Part shown: piece after piece, positions 1-7,622 of the stretch
Layout: each line of letters opens with the position of its first letter
Numbering within the stretch: position 1 is the stretch's first letter
NCBI RefSeq assembly: GCF_016902415.1
Contig: NZ_JACJLV010000001.1
Coordinates: 62,001-126,000, forward strand
Length of the DNA: 64,000 nt
Source: Mordavella massiliensis
GTDB lineage: Bacteria; Bacillota; Clostridia; Lachnospirales; Lachnospiraceae
Direction of reading: 5' to 3'
Notes under the pieces: model-generated
The model's database searches: none
What the model saw: the letters and a program-made list of their open reading frames with translations, nothing else
What the model was told of the DNA's origin: nothing
Program-made: the position numbers and the translations under genes

Positions 1-884
1 AATAGGCTTCTACTTTCGTGAGACACAATCATAAAATAAAAAGGATGGGAAAGGCTGATTTCAGCCAAAGTCTGGAAACCAGTAAGGGAGTTTGGATTGT
101 TCTGGAAGAACTCGGTAAATTCATCCCAAACAAACAGGATAGCCTTAATCTGGTTCTCAGAAATAATATTCTTAATCCAGTTTGCCATACCTTGAATATC
201 TAGACGTAAAGCAGTAATACCATTGTCTTCTGCAACGGTAATAATGTCTCTCATTGTCTTGGCAATTTGTGCCGGTGTGCCATTTTGCAGGCGATCAATA
301 ACAGCGTCTACATCATTACCGCCAAAAGTCCATGCATACTGTTCCTCTGCAATCAAAGTATTGAAATAGTCACGATTTGCTTTTTTCTCTAACCATTTGA
401 GTGCCGCAACACGCAGAGATGCTTCGCCACGGTTAGTGATACCATTCTTCTCCAAGGCAGACATAATACTGTCCTGAACTGCAAGAATCAAATCCTGATC
501 GGAGCGAATAGAACCCGAACCTATTCTATGGATGGTAATAAGCAGACCATCATTCTTATCTGCGATAATCTTTTGACAGAGATCTTGGCTTAAACCGTAG
601 TCATTAAAATAGTCTTTTACTTCTTCATCTGTAGCGTCCAGCAAAGATTTTACAGTAAGTGCAGCATGTGACTTACCAGTGCCATATGCCCCTTCAACCC
701 AAAGAGAGCGAGGGTCTTTACCGGACAATACCGTATGAGTTTTTTCAAGCAGCTTCACAAAAGTATCGTGAGGATAAAAACTTTTCCAGCTTACCATGCC
801 ACTTTCAATCAAATCTGCGGTTACTGCCGCATAATACTTGGGGTCTATATTAAAATAGTCCCTATAAAGTTTTTTGCCCGCCAT
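1..884 (-). CDS. P-loop ATPase, BrxC-like, N-terminal part (cut by window edge)
   Basis: Open minus-strand frame running off the left edge, about 294 codons present. It begins MAGKKLYRDYFNIDP; a GGGGG ribosome site precedes the ATG. Walker A is GAYGTGKSHA at about residue 67-76, and a Walker B-like ILFVWDEFTEFF stands near residue 262-273. The reach of the frame and the early Walker A suit the large ATPases (over 1,000 residues) of BREX-type defence systems. It starts 17 bases after the PAPS-reductase gene, so the two are in one operon. Seen: P-loop ATPase, N-terminal fragment. Inferred: BrxC-like, from its neighbour. It could be another STAND/AAA defence ATPase. Confidence 0.7.
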   Translation of the reverse strand, partial: MAGKKLYRDYFNIDPKYYAAVTADLIESGMVSWKSFYPHDTFVKLLEKTHTVLSGKDPRSLWVEGAYGTGKSHAALTVKSLLDATDEEVKDYFNDYGLSQDLCQKIIADKNDGLLITIHRIGSGSIRSDQDLILAVQDSIMSALEKNGITNRGEASLRVAALKWLEKKANRDYFNTLIAEEQYAWTFGGNDVDAVIDRLQNGTPAQIAKTMRDIITVAEDNGITALRLDIQGMANWIKNIISENQIKAILFVWDEFTEFFQNNPNSLTGFQTLAEISLSHPFYFMIVSHESRSL

Positions 885-901
885 GCGTCATACCCCCTTA
901 T

Positions 902-3322
902 TTAGAACAGTCGCAATACATCTTCAGAAGTTAACTCAGAACCAGTAGGACGTAGAGTAATAGTGTCCAGGTCAAGAGTGAAGGATGCAGAAATAAACTC
1001 AGGATAGTTTACTGTAAGTCCATTCAGAATGCGAATCATACATTCTCTATCCAACCCGAAAATACGAGTAGGACTTACTCCATCACGCTCAATAGAATCA
1101 TCAAGCAATGTTTCGAGTGTAAACTGGTAGTAGTCACCACAGGCTTCAGCAAATTTGTACAAGCTATACAGAATTACTCTGGCATCCGGAGAATCCCATC
1201 CACATCTCACCAAAGAGTTTAAGGTGATGGTTTCCTTACCAGATGCACTAATCTTTTCCTCCACATCACATTCAGCAAAAATGCGAGAGGTACCGAGAGG
1301 TGTTTTGTCCATGACAATTTTGAAAGCATCCACAACATTTCTTTTACCAAGCCCCTTCAAGTCATTCTCCATGACATCGGAGAGCATCATCTTAATGGAG
1401 TCCGGAGTATAAGAAACGCCCAGCTTCAGATTATTAACAAACCAGTTATATGCTGGAGTATAAACAAGATTACACAAAATCAAAGCCCATGCAGCATCTT
1501 CTGTTGCACCAATTTTGCATACAGCTTCTGCTACTGCGGTAGGAACACACTTACAATATTTGTCTCCTTCTGCTTTTTTATCATACACAACAAGACCGGC
1601 ATCCTGAACGAAATTTTTAAATGCGTCCTTCTTTTTATTCGCTACCAGTCCATCACCATCAGACATCCAAAATTCCGCACCGCAATCATAGTTGCAGAAA
1701 ATATTCATCCATTCAGCACGAGCACCAAAGCTAAAGTACCTATCTAATCCAGTCATCTTTCTCCCCTCCGAAATCTTATTTCTAATTGAATTGTATCTTA
1801 AACAATGTTCATGTATATCATGGCACTTGTGACAGTGAGTACAATTATCACCGATTTTTATGCCATTTGACATATCAATACAATGGCTCTTACACTCTGC
1901 TTCACATACACCACAGCCAATGCAATATAGCGTCTTTACAATAACGCTTCTGAATAGTGAGAAGAACCTGACATCATCCTTGCTCTTTGTACAATTCAAC
2001 AGCAAGAAAGAAATGCTTATGTCAGTTCTTTCAAGTTTGATTTGGTACAGTTTATCCAAATATTTGATAATATACAAATCAGGTTCCGCTTGATAAAACT
2101 CGCCAACTGTTTTTGCCCACATTTCCCAACGAAACTGAGTTTTGTAAACTGTGATCGTCGGAGGAGTTGCGTCAGACTTTACTTCAAAGCAGTCATGCCC
2201 GAAATTGAGTTCTCTACCAGATTTTCTGGTTCTCCAGTAACCAGAATCGATGAACATTTTCATTTCCTCAGAGCTATAGTTTGTTTTACCGCTTGTAGAA
2301 ACAATCATTTCTAAATAACTGTCGGTTTCTGTCGGATAACACGTTCTCTTGATGTATTCATGTCGTCCAGACGAGTTCGGACACACAAGGCACCCTGCAC
2401 GAGAATTACCTTTCTTATATGCTTCGTTTATGATAAGTCCTCTTGCGAAAATATAAAGAAACAGTTCCGCAGAACTCCACTCCAGAATACCATGACAGCT
2501 TAGCTGACCACTATGCTTCTTTCCATCATTCACAGAATCGTATTCACTTCGAGTCAAACTTTCTTCTGCACGAATACCTGTAAATGCCATCCCTGTAAAG
2601 TCATGCTTTCCTGTTATCTTTCTCAGCAAATTGATCTGCGGAGAGGTTTTATGAACACTGCAACACCATCTGCTCGTAGTAGACGGTGGTCCAAATATCT
2701 TCCATGTTTGAGAAGGAACCAATTTGGATTGTGCCCTGTAAAACTTTATTCCTTGCTTCTGACAATACTGCTCAATCTGTTTAATGACTTTATATGTATC
2801 AGGGAACTCCATTCGTGTATCCCCAAATAAAACAAGGAAATCGTCATGTGGTAGTGACCTTTGAACCAAATCAAGTGCTACAACACTATCCTTTCCACCG
2901 CTAAACGCAACGTAAAATATGTCAACTTTATTTTTATATTCACGGTAAACATTATATATTTTTTGAATCGTTTCCTGGGTCAATGTTTCTAAAAGATTTT
3001 GATTCTTTTGAACCATTGCCTCGATATCAACAAACTCCAACACTCCATTATCAGGTTCAGGGGAATCCAGAATAACAAGCTCTGGTGCTGTATAAACGGA
3101 ACCGCCCTTTGTTCTTGCTACAGTGCGTCCTTTGTATATGTAATTATTGGCTTCTGCCCACATTAGTGGTGCGCTATCATCCTTTGGATAATTCCAATAC
3201 CGGTCAAAACCAAGGATATCTAGTTCTTTATAATAGACGGGACGGGGTTCCTTACTAAATCTAGAGATTTCAGTTGTAAGTAGTAGTCCACCGGTCTCCG
3301 CATCCCATATATATTGGTACAT
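902..3322 (-). CDS. PAPS-reductase family / 4Fe-4S / DUF4007 fusion protein (BrxP-like)
   Basis: 806 residues in three parts. About 100-400 is an adenine nucleotide alpha-hydrolase (PAPS reductase, DndC-like) domain with P-loop SGGKDS at 141-146 and cysteines at 220-221 and 311/314 (GCLVCP). About 467-507 is ferredoxin-like: C467, C470, C473, C477, then C494, C497, C500. The rest matches my memory of DUF4007. Family knowledge: PAPS-reductase proteins supply sulphur chemistry in Dnd phosphorothioation and mark type 4 BREX as BrxP. Start ATG has AGAGGA 7 bases upstream. The next gene is a BrxC-like ATPase. The target, DNA modification or nucleotide signal, cannot be told from sequence. Confidence 0.82.
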   Translation of the reverse strand: MYQYIWDAETGGLLLTTEISRFSKEPRPVYYKELDILGFDRYWNYPKDDSAPLMWAEANNYIYKGRTVARTKGGSVYTAPELVILDSPEPDNGVLEFVDIEAMVQKNQNLLETLTQETIQKIYNVYREYKNKVDIFYVAFSGGKDSVVALDLVQRSLPHDDFLVLFGDTRMEFPDTYKVIKQIEQYCQKQGIKFYRAQSKLVPSQTWKIFGPPSTTSRWCCSVHKTSPQINLLRKITGKHDFTGMAFTGIRAEESLTRSEYDSVNDGKKHSGQLSCHGILEWSSAELFLYIFARGLIINEAYKKGNSRAGCLVCPNSSGRHEYIKRTCYPTETDSYLEMIVSTSGKTNYSSEEMKMFIDSGYWRTRKSGRELNFGHDCFEVKSDATPPTITVYKTQFRWEMWAKTVGEFYQAEPDLYIIKYLDKLYQIKLERTDISISFLLLNCTKSKDDVRFFSLFRSVIVKTLYCIGCGVCEAECKSHCIDMSNGIKIGDNCTHCHKCHDIHEHCLRYNSIRNKISEGRKMTGLDRYFSFGARAEWMNIFCNYDCGAEFWMSDGDGLVANKKKDAFKNFVQDAGLVVYDKKAEGDKYCKCVPTAVAEAVCKIGATEDAAWALILCNLVYTPAYNWFVNNLKLGVSYTPDSIKMMLSDVMENDLKGLGKRNVVDAFKIVMDKTPLGTSRIFAECDVEEKISASGKETITLNSLVRCGWDSPDARVILYSLYKFAEACGDYYQFTLETLLDDSIERDGVSPTRIFGLDRECMIRILNGLTVNYPEFISASFTLDLDTITLRPTGSELTSEDVLRLF

Positions 3323-3349
3323 GATGGTGTCCTCTTTTCTATATTTTTG

Positions 3350-3557
3350 TTACTCTTTTCGAGCTGCTATTATCAAGTTTCCTTCAAGAGAAACTACCTC
3401 GTCAAACAAATCAAATATATTCCCATAAAAACGTACTAAATTCACGAATCTTCCCTGTTTATTATCATCTTTTCTTTCTTATGGTAGAAACAATGGGACT
3501 GATGAGATGTAAATGCCATGGACTGATTTTTGATAACATCATGATTTTCTTGCCCAT
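3350..3557 (-). pseudogene. Small gene of about 68 residues broken by one extra A
   Basis: An ATG at 3557 preceded by GGAGG opens a frame that stops after 30 residues (3465). Removing one A from the AAAA run at 3470-3473 joins it to a second frame ending at 3350. The rebuilt protein of 68 residues begins MGKKIMMLSKISPWHLHL and ends EGNLIIAARKE. It fills the gap between the 1,140-residue gene and the PAPS-reductase gene with normal operon spacing. Family not recognised. The break may be real, a sequencing error in a homopolymer, or slippage; a GTG at 3445 could also start the second half separately. Confidence 0.5.
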
Positions 3558-3577
3558 AACCAGTTCCTCCGATTCTC

Positions 3578-6500
3578 TTATTTTTTTTGCACGCTCATGC
3601 GAATTTTTGCTTCCTGCATTACTTTTTCAATATCGCTATAACTTCTTCGTTGCTGATAACCCAAATCAACTAATAGCTGAAGGGCATCTTTTTTAGTTTT
3701 CCAACCAGTATTCTTTGAAAGGACATCAACAATTAGTGTTCTATAATCAGAAATACCTGATTCTTGTCGAACCATGGCGCCGCAGCAATCAGTAGCAGCA
3801 TAGCTTGCATGGAGCAATCTGAATTTTTTGCTATAGTTTGCAACATAGCTTTCCAAAACAAAATTGTTCCAAGGAACATCTATTGTCGGAAAATGTAGAA
3901 ACAGATTGATGTTTTTAATAGGCGTATATTCACTCCGAACAAGACTATCTAAAACAGCATCCGTCTGTTCAACATTAAAATGGATTTGATCCCGACGAAT
4001 AAACTCATTTTGGTTTATTCGAACCATTTCGCCATACACAGAATCCCAATAAATTACAGTATTCAACTCATTTGCAAATTTTTTAAGTTCTTCGACTGTA
4101 ATATGTTCAGATTGCTGGCAGAAGTCTGAGAAGACTTCTGCCATACTGATTTCCTCATCCTTATCGCTGATGATTGCACCTCTGAATGAAAACCTTTCTC
4201 GAAGAAGATATGCAAGTGCATTGCGAAGTCCCCACATTGGATAATCCGGTGTGTTCATAAGAACGGACGGACAATGCTCCTCAATTAGCTGCATAAGTTC
4301 CACATCAGAAATGTAGCTTCTTTGTAACAAAGCATGGCTTATTAACTCTGCAATCTTTTGTAATTCATTTCCACTAACAGGCAGGTTTGGGGCATATAAA
4401 TATGCTTCAGGTGCAACATTCACTATTCCTGGCGTCGTAACTAATGTGTGTTTAATTTTATCCAATGGTATGTACCAAAGACTACTTTCTATTTCAGAAT
4501 AAATTACTGGTAAATGAGATTTTTTCATATACTCAATAACATCTTTGGCAGGGGCAGGTTCTTTGTTATATCCAAACAGATAGTTGTATCGTTTGAAATA
4601 GTTTCTCTTTTGGGAACTAAACAGAATACTTTCCAAAGAGTTAACATTATAAACATGAAGTATTTCTGCTAGTTCTTCTTGGAACTTCTCAAACAAGCAA
4701 TCCAAGTAAATACACGAAGCCCCCTCCTTAAAGGTTTCCATGATTGTCTCATTGATTTCTTCGATGAGATCTTTTTGTTCCATGTCATCTTTTACATAAA
4801 TACGCTCATCACGAAGGCTACCAATCCTTATCAACGTATGAACCAGCTGCTCGTCTTCTTCGGTCAGTTCCTGTCCGAACATATCAAAATAATACATTCT
4901 AAAGCGATTGCGATCGATTGCTTTTCCAGGTCTAAAACCATCCACAAAATTTTCTGCCAATATTGCGGTATATCGTTCTTTAACCTGTGGATTAACAGCA
5001 ACTTCTATTTCAGATGCAATCGGTCGCTGTTCCGTTTTTTCTACTGGCTCTATTTGCAATGTTGAAACAGGAGAAACTATTGCATTATTTCCAGTTGCTC
5101 TGCGGAAGGCAATAAGTTTATTCATTGCGGAAATAGGTCGCTTCTGTCGCTCGTTGATAAACTCAACAAATCTGCTGTCCTTTCGCATTTCCCAAAATAT
5201 ACGCTCAAGAACATTTGCATCTTCTATAAGAAGAAAATGTTCTTCTTTTATGTAATCATGTTCCTTTGCAAATTCACTGCATTTATTAATATCGGACAGG
5301 TATGCCAAAATAGCTGCTTTCTGCATTTGTTGTTCCTGTGCCCAAGCAATAAAAGCAATGCGAGTTTTCGTAACTTCATCTTTTTGCTCTGGTGCAGATT
5401 TGACTGGAGCTTTTATAGTTATTCCTCCAGCAAGAGCATTACAGTAATCCCAGTATTTTGACAAAGCAGCACGATAGCGATTATGCTGACTTTCATTCAA
5501 CTGTGCAAACTCAGGATTAGCCAAAAGTTTCATGTTAATCTGATATACTTGTTCTGCATCCAAAATGAAATACAGTTCTTTTTCAGAAAATCCTAATCTT
5601 ACAGAATACTGTCCTGCAACATTTACAGCAGAGCTATAGCTCTGAGCCGAACGTTCTGCAAGACCTGCACCTGATATAAGCCAATTCTCAAAAGCTGACT
5701 TTCCCTCATACACGGAGGTAATAATCACTCTATTTTCTGTTTCAATATGTCTGTTTTGGGTGCGTTCCTCGATAATAGGTAATTCTAATGAATCATCTGT
5801 CCCAACCGATAAATGCTTACCCTGTTTTTTTTCATAAATGATTTCGATGTTATCGTAATCCATATTGCATTTGCTCATGAGTAAGTGCAATATAGTAACA
5901 ATTTCATCAGGTGTACAATCTGTTTCGAGATACAGACCATCATTTATTTTTTCAGCTTTACTAAGTCTATCAATACCAGCTCTACCAGTAAAAATAACTT
6001 TACCGACTCCAGCAAAATAATATCCAACCATTCCTCGAATAATGGCAGGATAGTCCTCCTGTAAAAACTCAATGATACATACGAACACATTTTGCCATCC
6101 ATGACATTTTCTTTTTTCATCAAAATAAGAAACTTCAATAGGAATAGTAAAAGTAAAGTCTATTCTCTCATTTGCAAAATTCCAAATGAGAGTATTGGTT
6201 TTATTCTCAGCTACATTGGTAGAAATAATATTGTTCGATTCAGAAATCGCATTTTCATTTCCTATAGTTATAACTTCTTCTATAGTTGAAACTATATGAT
6301 TTGTATCAGCATCCTCCGTAGGCTTAGTGCTGATAGCTTCAGCATCTTCTTTAGTGGCATTAATCGGCACTGCTTTTTGAACAGGATTCTCACGGAGAAA
6401 TGCCAAGTAATACTCCATGACTTTTTTCATTTTTCCAATCTGACGGAAGTACTTAAATTGAAACATCTTATTTGTTTGGATCGTATTTTTAACGTACTGT

Positions 6501-7000
6501 AATGTTTCAAAATCTGTTGTTTCAAATAATGGCACAGCCAAAATGTGCTTGTTTAGGCAAAAGGCTTCTAAGTCCTTGCAAACAATATAAAATTCAGAAA
6601 GTTGCGCCGAGGAGACTCTTGAAGAAAGCCACGCAAAGAAATTCTCCTGGATATTGACTTGCACGGTACATTCTCCTTTCGCTTGAATTAGTATCTCATC
6701 AAATTCCGATCGCCTGTTTTTATATAAGGCGACCATTTCTGCAAACATCTTTGTTGCATTATGTAAACCGGAAGGTTTTTCATCAACCAAACCACCGACA
6801 ATTTTCATCTGCATAGAAATTCCGTTTTCATTACGGAATACTTCATCTATCTCAATGCCAGAAAGAATCGCTCGACACCTAAGAAGTGTTGATACTTCTT
6901 TTATTGCTTCCTGTTGAGACAACTCTTTACCTTTCACTCTTAGATACGCATCAATAAGCAATGCTGTTTCCTGTTTGTCCCACGGAATTCGTAGTGCCAC
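3578..7000 (-). CDS. Large protein of unknown function with three integrase-arm-like repeats
   Basis: 1,140 residues, GTG start with GGAAG upstream. No catalytic motif is evident. Residues 1-110 form a charged domain (IPWDKQETALLIDAYLRVK). Three segments, about 118-205, 433-525 and 545-640, share a pattern: aromatic-x-x-W, a Ser/Ala-rich helix with Tyr, then L..N..F and an Arg/Ser helix ending in Tyr or Phe. This resembles the SAM-like core-binding domain of tyrosine integrases, without their catalytic domain. Residues 675-1140 form a long module that I associate with recurring, unassigned large Clostridial proteins. The position, second in a defence-like operon behind a small HTH gene, suggests DNA recognition or sensing; this is inference. 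Confidence 0.75.
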   Translation of the reverse strand: MALRIPWDKQETALLIDAYLRVKGKELSQQEAIKEVSTLLRCRAILSGIEIDEVFRNENGISMQMKIVGGLVDEKPSGLHNATKMFAEMVALYKNRRSEFDEILIQAKGECTVQVNIQENFFAWLSSRVSSAQLSEFYIVCKDLEAFCLNKHILAVPLFETTDFETLQYVKNTIQTNKMFQFKYFRQIGKMKKVMEYYLAFLRENPVQKAVPINATKEDAEAISTKPTEDADTNHIVSTIEEVITIGNENAISESNNIISTNVAENKTNTLIWNFANERIDFTFTIPIEVSYFDEKRKCHGWQNVFVCIIEFLQEDYPAIIRGMVGYYFAGVGKVIFTGRAGIDRLSKAEKINDGLYLETDCTPDEIVTILHLLMSKCNMDYDNIEIIYEKKQGKHLSVGTDDSLELPIIEERTQNRHIETENRVIITSVYEGKSAFENWLISGAGLAERSAQSYSSAVNVAGQYSVRLGFSEKELYFILDAEQVYQINMKLLANPEFAQLNESQHNRYRAALSKYWDYCNALAGGITIKAPVKSAPEQKDEVTKTRIAFIAWAQEQQMQKAAILAYLSDINKCSEFAKEHDYIKEEHFLLIEDANVLERIFWEMRKDSRFVEFINERQKRPISAMNKLIAFRRATGNNAIVSPVSTLQIEPVEKTEQRPIASEIEVAVNPQVKERYTAILAENFVDGFRPGKAIDRNRFRMYYFDMFGQELTEEDEQLVHTLIRIGSLRDERIYVKDDMEQKDLIEEINETIMETFKEGASCIYLDCLFEKFQEELAEILHVYNVNSLESILFSSQKRNYFKRYNYLFGYNKEPAPAKDVIEYMKKSHLPVIYSEIESSLWYIPLDKIKHTLVTTPGIVNVAPEAYLYAPNLPVSGNELQKIAELISHALLQRSYISDVELMQLIEEHCPSVLMNTPDYPMWGLRNALAYLLRERFSFRGAIISDKDEEISMAEVFSDFCQQSEHITVEELKKFANELNTVIYWDSVYGEMVRINQNEFIRRDQIHFNVEQTDAVLDSLVRSEYTPIKNINLFLHFPTIDVPWNNFVLESYVANYSKKFRLLHASYAATDCCGAMVRQESGISDYRTLIVDVLSKNTGWKTKKDALQLLVDLGYQQRRSYSDIEKVMQEAKIRMSVQKK

Positions 7001-7054
7001 CCAATTTACTTCCAGCTATAGTCTCTCAAAATAATCTAATAATATAACTACTTT

Positions 7055-7249
7055 CTATTTAGTAGCATCTTTATTGTCACATTCACACACAAAAGTATAT
7101 TTGGGTCTCTGTGTACCTTCAGGAATTAACCAGTTCGTTCCGACTTTCATTACACCGGTTATGCGACCACTTTTACAATGGTTCTGTACTTGCCTTACTG
7201 TGATATTCCACTTTTCAGCAGCTTCTTTCGTTGTCATATAACCGTTCAT
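7055..7249 (-). CDS. Small helix-turn-helix regulator (HTH_17/excisionase-like)
   Basis: 64 residues from the ATG at 7249 (MNGYMTTKEAAEKWNITVRQV). AGGAGG lies 9 bases upstream, so this start is better than the upstream one. The sequence TTKEAAEKWNITVRQVQNHCKSGRI is a MerR/excisionase-type winged HTH. It is the first gene of the minus-strand cargo operon, so it probably represses or tunes that operon; such small HTH proteins often head defence loci. An excisionase role is less likely because no integrase is next to it in this window. Confidence 0.7.
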   Translation of the reverse strand: MNGYMTTKEAAEKWNITVRQVQNHCKSGRITGVMKVGTNWLIPEGTQRPKYTFVCECDNKDATK

Positions 7250-7622
7250 AGAATCATTCCTCCTACTACTATACAATTATCATATAATGACACCACTTTA
7301 CATTATACTGTGCTATAAGCGAAGTGTCAATTCGTTTAAACGAAATCAAGAGACTTGCTAAAATAAAGTGAGATGACAAATTGGCAAGCAGTGTAAACCT
7401 GTACAGGTTCACTCATTTTTTCAATTTCGCCTCTGGCTCAATTTTCAAAAATTGCTTGTTGGGGCAACGTCCCCAATCCCCTTTGAACGCCATCTCCGAT
7501 GTCGGCTGCACGGTCATTCTGACCGTTTCATAACCTGTATTCAGGTCACAGGTTTCATTTGGACTTGAAGAAAAAGAAAAAACCTGAACAGCCGAAGCCA
7601 TTCAGGTTAATTACATACCGAA
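7250..7622. other. Structured non-coding stretch rich in inverted repeats
   Basis: No convincing gene. It holds a perfect 14-base palindrome AACCTGTACAGGTT (7396-7409), a hairpin with arms TTGGGG/CCCCAA (7459-7476), a hairpin with arms ACGGTCA/TGACCGT (7510-7526), a further AACCTG...CAGGT dyad (7532-7546) and a terminator-like stem (7581-7608). A 62-codon frame (7413-7601, minus) crosses these dyads and lacks a clear ribosome site, so it is probably not a gene. The part nearer 7250-7330 should hold the promoter of the cargo operon. The dense dyads could be an origin of transfer or operator cluster; unproven. Confidence 0.5.
7570..7608 (-). terminator. Intrinsic terminator after the XRE gene
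   Basis: Read on the minus strand, AACCTGAA (7601-7608) pairs with TTCAGGTT (7581-7588) around a small inner stem with a TTCG loop, followed by a T-rich run. It starts 14 bases after the XRE stop codon. Confidence 0.7.

Follow-up and report, generated by a model that had tools for sequence, protein, structure and literature searches.

A predicted multi-winged-helix protein at the head of a type 4 BREX operon in Mordavella massiliensis

Few BREX types have received less study than type 4. It has been reported as a phosphorothioate system (PMC11931770), and in a 2026 survey its gene set includes a cysteine desulfurase (56% of taxa) and a small zinc-finger protein (PMC12839542). An additional component that is conserved and common to several phosphorothioate-linked systems would be a concrete candidate for the missing part by which such systems select their sites and sense invaders. 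Two other described defence systems bear on the locus presented here: Pbe, which according to PMC6459918 and PMC10853773 consists of four genes, and MzaABCDE, a validated system of which MzaA has been described as a sigma factor (PMC9523054).

The operon and its setting

The window, i.e. the whole stretch of 64,000 nucleotides analysed here (G000:C1:62001-126000, from a genome of 2.6 Mb), contains the first part of a minus-strand operon that runs leftwards past the window edge, in the order HTH regulator, 1,140-aa protein, BrxP, BrxC, PglZ, BrxL, zinc-finger protein and cysteine desulfurase. All genes of type 4 BREX (BrxPCZL) as listed in the survey (PMC12839542), namely brxP, brxC, pglZ, brxL, the zinc-finger ORF and the cysteine desulfurase gene, are found at the locus, which differs in adding a 64-aa HTH regulator and the predicted multi-winged-helix protein of 1,140 aa ahead of this core. 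The features of the window are:

1 to 884, minus strand: 5' part of brxC, residues 1-294 of 1,401; cut by the window edge, the gene runs left to G000:C1:58679
902 to 3322, minus strand: brxP, 806 aa, with PAPS reductase, 4Fe-4S and C-terminal DUF4007-type region (PADLOC BrxP and PAPS_reduct)
3323 to 3577, no strand: spacer of 255 nt, not a gene, with frames broken by indels relative to locus L025
3578 to 7000, minus strand: head-of-operon protein, 1,140 aa; in other BREX-4 loci, homologues lie immediately 5' of brxP
7055 to 7249, minus strand: HTH_17/excisionase-like regulator, 64 aa (Pfam HTH_17, E 1e-7)
7302 to 7330, minus strand: operon promoter with the sigma-A consensus TTGACA-N17-TATAAT, preceding the HTH gene
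7331 to 7344, no strand: candidate operator, a perfect 14-bp palindrome, TTCGTTTAAACGAA, abutting the -35 element

The preliminary description of this DNA had listed five minus-strand genes, four of which are confirmed by open reading frame calling and profile scans, among them the HTH regulator. The exception is the small gene said to separate the large one from brxP, and I reject it: the spacer holds only open reading frames of about 30 codons, and in the near-identical locus L025 its length changes are not multiples of three and disrupt the frames. The proposed fusion of PAPS reductase, 4Fe-4S and DUF4007 stands in its first two parts, as BrxP matches the PADLOC BrxP model over residues 1-796 (E 4.9e-231) and PAPS_reduct (E 4e-25), and carries the SGGKDS loop and Cys clusters; the DUF4007 part has no Pfam match, but nevertheless lies inside the coverage of the PADLOC BrxP model. 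The P-loop ATPase is BrxC (C1:58679-62884), matched by the PADLOC BrxC model over the whole protein (E 4.3e-242) and endowed with the Walker A motif GAYGTGKS and the Walker B motif LFVWDE; it does not reach the threshold of the NCBIfam BrxC model. The comparison with PADLOC thus gives matches to BREX models over the full length of both proteins.

Extension of the sequence to the left, where PglZ, BrxL and BrxC had been proposed for a search, shows all three to be present. PglZ (778 aa, C1:56334-58670) scores 474.2 bits against NF033445 BREX_PglZ_4, with a cut-off of 140, and BrxL (507 aa, C1:54788-56311) scores 390.4 bits against TIGR02688, with a cut-off of 329.3, the BrxL match likewise spanning the entire protein. 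They are followed by a zinc-finger open reading frame of 69 aa (C1:54586-54795, CxxC...CxxC), which lies between brxL and the desulfurase gene and overlaps the end of brxL, and by a cysteine desulfurase of the NifS/DndA type (376 aa, C1:53459-54589). The catalytic motifs of BrxP, BrxC, PglZ, BrxL and the desulfurase are intact, and no methyltransferase gene was found inside the operon, BrxP standing in place of the PglX methyltransferase. As the core is complete, with BrxP, BrxC, BrxL and a PglZ of the BREX-4 type, the locus belongs to the known type 4 BREX, so that of the two possibilities raised initially, a BREX-4-like or a new sulphur-dependent operon, the former holds and the latter is rejected. 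Judged by its gene content, the operon represents type 4 (phosphorothioate) BREX in intact form, carried as cargo by an integrative element, and it is expected to mark DNA with sulphur.

As had been observed before, the operon region is more AT-rich than the backbone of the element (36-40% versus 43-49% G+C; further right in the window the value is about 55%). The desulfurase end of the operon is adjoined by a PADLOC PDC-M13-like protein and by an HTH protein paired with an ImmA-type metalloprotease (L002:9573-11187, G000:C1:51573-53187); an HTH/ImmA pair is also found upstream of BREX-4 on a Methanosphaera plasmid (L084), and in L026. Three tandem serine recombinases lie on the element's left side (L002:1832-6779), and serine recombinases are likewise close to the BREX-4 operon of L026.

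A small HTH gene upstream of the large gene is also present in L025 and L026; the promoter is conserved in L025, with a similar one in L026, and the palindrome occurs as a single copy within the window and is identical in L025. From these elements, the 64-aa HTH protein is probably a small autoregulator.

Occurrence and inheritance of the head protein

With the core already known, the head gene is the new part of this locus, and a testable candidate for the missing recognition component. The protein of 1,140 aa matches no model of Pfam, NCBIfam or PADLOC, and no mention of it was found in the main text of PMC12839542 on type 4 BREX. While it was correctly described as unassigned, it is not an extra peculiar to this locus, but a recurrent component of BREX-4. 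The large protein of L025 is 93% identical to it, and its C-terminal part of about 465 aa is encoded directly 5' of brxP in 20 BREX-4 loci. A class-wide search found relatives, of which those with usable context (L026, L027, L029) directly precede brxP. The single match in phage records, on the faecal scaffold L067, belongs to a full BREX-4 operon and again lies before brxP; a plasmid tblastn gave no match. When viral contigs were scanned directly with the large protein, or with a first alignment of the family, no relative emerged, whereas scans with BrxP and BrxC did find loci.

In order to avoid circularity, loci were gathered from the core genes, independently of the large protein. Among 398 Bacillota genomes, 18 full or partial BrxP loci were found, and the family is located ahead of brxP in eight of these; the others have a shorter relative (two, L079 and L082), a sigma-70-like gene (three) or nothing evident (five) in this position. 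In IMG/VR, six of eight distinct BREX-4 loci, found by BrxP or BrxC, have the family directly ahead of brxP, and the other two have a shorter relative. The reverse search with a profile of the C-terminal part matches 14 of the 398 genomes, and all eight strong matches (E<1e-100) adjoin brxP. Several BREX-4 clades have no head gene (L068-L070, L076, L078 and the archaeal L084), which indicates that it is dispensable for the core chemistry. Sigma-70-like genes before brxP are found at L083:4978-6423 and L075:13627-15108, and the former encodes a true sigma-70 factor with regions 1.1, 1.2, 2, 3 and 4.

The pairwise distances of the C-terminal part are correlated with those of BrxP (r 0.82, 16 loci, permutation P 5e-5), and in 13 loci the C-terminal part correlates with BrxC (r 0.915) as strongly as BrxP does (0.909). 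On a tree of BrxP, head-gene types follow the clades. Conserved position and co-divergence show that the large protein is inherited together with the BREX core, in many bacteria, which is not by itself proof of joint function. The family also offers defence-annotation databases a model that they now miss.

Fold and modules of the head protein

Three parts of the protein can be delimited in the window:

3587 to 4981, minus strand: conserved C-terminal array, residues 674-1138, predicted tandem winged helices (alignment A4, AF2, Foldseek)
5453 to 5707, minus strand: core-binding/SAM-like module, residues 432-516; the same module in L067, L026, L194, L115 and L029
6686 to 6997, minus strand: N-terminal 'PWDKxE' module, residues 2-105; other modules in its place in relatives

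From a single sequence, AlphaFold2 (AF2) gave a pLDDT of 31.8 for the 1,140-aa protein; with an alignment of eight sequences (A8), residues 668-1140 reached a mean pLDDT of 86.2. In the model of the array, a unit of helix-helix-helix-strand-strand is repeated about six times, and Foldseek matches it to tandem winged helices of the C-terminal fragment of SelB (1lva, prob 1.00), UFL1, ESCRT-II and RPC62. The TM-scores are low (0.2-0.45), because winged-helix arrays are flexible and bend. The C-terminal 465 aa or so are therefore modelled as a tandem winged-helix array, in which the window protein carries the motif FPxxGxxWNxFLLES; the alignment of this part is too divergent for a pattern scan. 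SelB provides the closest solved bacterial fold; however, this translation factor binds SECIS RNA, and at 12% identity functional homology is not implied. The large protein belongs to an unnamed family of multi-winged-helix proteins, as predicted, that probably bind DNA.

Besides the 'PWDKxE' module, the N-terminal half of the window protein has another helical module and modules of the core-binding/SAM-like type, the last in line with Pfam Phage_int_SAM matches in the relatives from L067 and L077. The N-terminal parts of other relatives are different: sigma-70 region 4 is present in L071, L072 and L113, HARE-HTH in L079 and L120, and an RNA polymerase alpha-CTD (5e-27) together with sigma region 4 (1e-9) in L116. 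Neither a Pfam sigma domain (sigma-70 regions 2-4 were sought) nor an alpha-CTD module was found in the window protein. The BrxP proteins of L116 and the window are 63% identical, and the N-terminal 987 aa of the L116 protein and 673 aa of the window protein have no detectable similarity, which shows that N-terminal modules are swapped, whereas array and core remain associated.

The same C-terminal array also heads other defence operons. These include Dnd-PbeABCD operons (L105, L107, L032), PbeABCD operons with no DndC within the stretch examined (L108, L110, L111, L112), and operons accompanied by the PADLOC candidate PDC-M33ABC or by genes similar to it (L031, and by sequence resemblance L106). 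The DndCDEA-PbeABCD systems, which are CxC ABC-ATPase systems, thus share a head protein of this array type with BREX-4 in several Bacillota, although their effector genes are unrelated to PglZ and BrxL, and no mention of the array protein was found in the main texts of PMC6459918 and PMC10853773. MzaA resembles the family as a sigma-factor-like gene that is a member of a defence operon, and the PADLOC MzaA model weakly matches three of 19 family members (E 3.5e-7); the window protein has no such match in the profile search. A recurrent neighbour in PbeABCD-type operons (L112:15986-18043, L111:3352-4836, L200:4096-5994) has a sequence suggestive of a B12-binding/radical-SAM protein.

Possible roles of the head protein, and further observations

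The reading I favour, with a probability of roughly 0.55, is that the integrative element carries a complete BREX-4 to which the 1,140-aa protein contributes a lineage-conserved seventh component, a subunit for target recognition or sensing, while the HTH protein sets expression. By homology, the cysteine desulfurase would hand sulphur to BrxP, and BrxP and the BrxC ring would put phosphorothioates on self DNA, after which PglZ and BrxL, as established for the family, would stop the replication of unmarked phage DNA. The constant winged-helix array could dock with this exclusion machinery, and the exchangeable N-terminal modules may recognise either a site on DNA or a state linked to an invader, e.g. 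promoters or RNA polymerase, with the small HTH protein acting at the promoter palindrome to control the operon. A role of the BrxA/SspB type is conceivable as well, although DUF4007 in BrxP already fills it. More tentatively, the whole family could be swappable recognition or sensor subunits, in which the constant array plugs into phosphorothioate BREX, Dnd-PbeABCD and PDC-M33, and the N-terminal modules, often derived from RNA polymerase, set the target site or invader signal, so that phosphorothioate defence would follow an HsdS-like principle.

A modular subunit for DNA recognition or sensing in modification-based exclusion is the most likely reading, and the strongest competitor is a transcription factor specific to the operon or to a regulon. 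The large protein might be a sigma/anti-sigma-like or promoter-binding regulator that switches on the BREX genes when needed, without a share in modification or exclusion, which I consider less likely, even though it is encoded at the head of the operon, sigma region 4, alpha-CTD and HARE-HTH in its relatives are equally typical of transcription factors, the full sigma-70 factor of L083 takes the same position, and MzaA of MzaABCDE sets a precedent (PMC9523054). These modules, the L083 factor, the clades without a head gene and the low TM-scores, which flexible arrays lead one to expect, also count against the recognition reading. However, an ordinary housekeeping promoter of consensus sequence and a separate, probably autoregulatory HTH protein with its palindrome lower the likelihood of the large protein being the operon's main transcription factor. 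It is moreover very large, its window copy has neither sigma nor alpha-CTD module, and the divergence of its winged-helix part tracks that of BrxC just as closely as the divergence of BrxP does, which suggests a physical partnership.

Phage factors acting on sigma region 4 and alpha-CTD are well established. RNA-polymerase-like modules may mimic the host parts attacked by phages, so that binding of a phage factor would trigger the BREX, Pbe or M33 effectors. The recurrence of such modules in rapidly exchanged N-termini, at the head of three otherwise unrelated defence systems, would fit a decoy or guard, but I regard it as improbable, as most BREX-4 members, including that of the window, have other modules (PWDK, SAM-like) without a link to RNA polymerase, and no phage trigger is known. 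That the gene is simply an unrelated passenger beside an ordinary BREX-4 operon, as its absence from several clades might suggest, is very improbable indeed, being contradicted by its conserved position and orientation, its co-divergence, and its recurrence in Dnd-Pbe operons.

Finally, several phage-like contigs in IMG/VR (L118:2403-5753, L119:10001-13351, L121-L123) encode one or two tandem homologues of the PAPS-reductase/4Fe-4S part of BrxP; no other BREX genes were seen on these contigs, and the homologues could possibly serve phage sulphur modification or counter-defence. In the IMG/VR BREX-4 locus L114, a transposase-like gene of 438 aa, present as two copies in tandem, interrupts brxP (L114:7156-9969).
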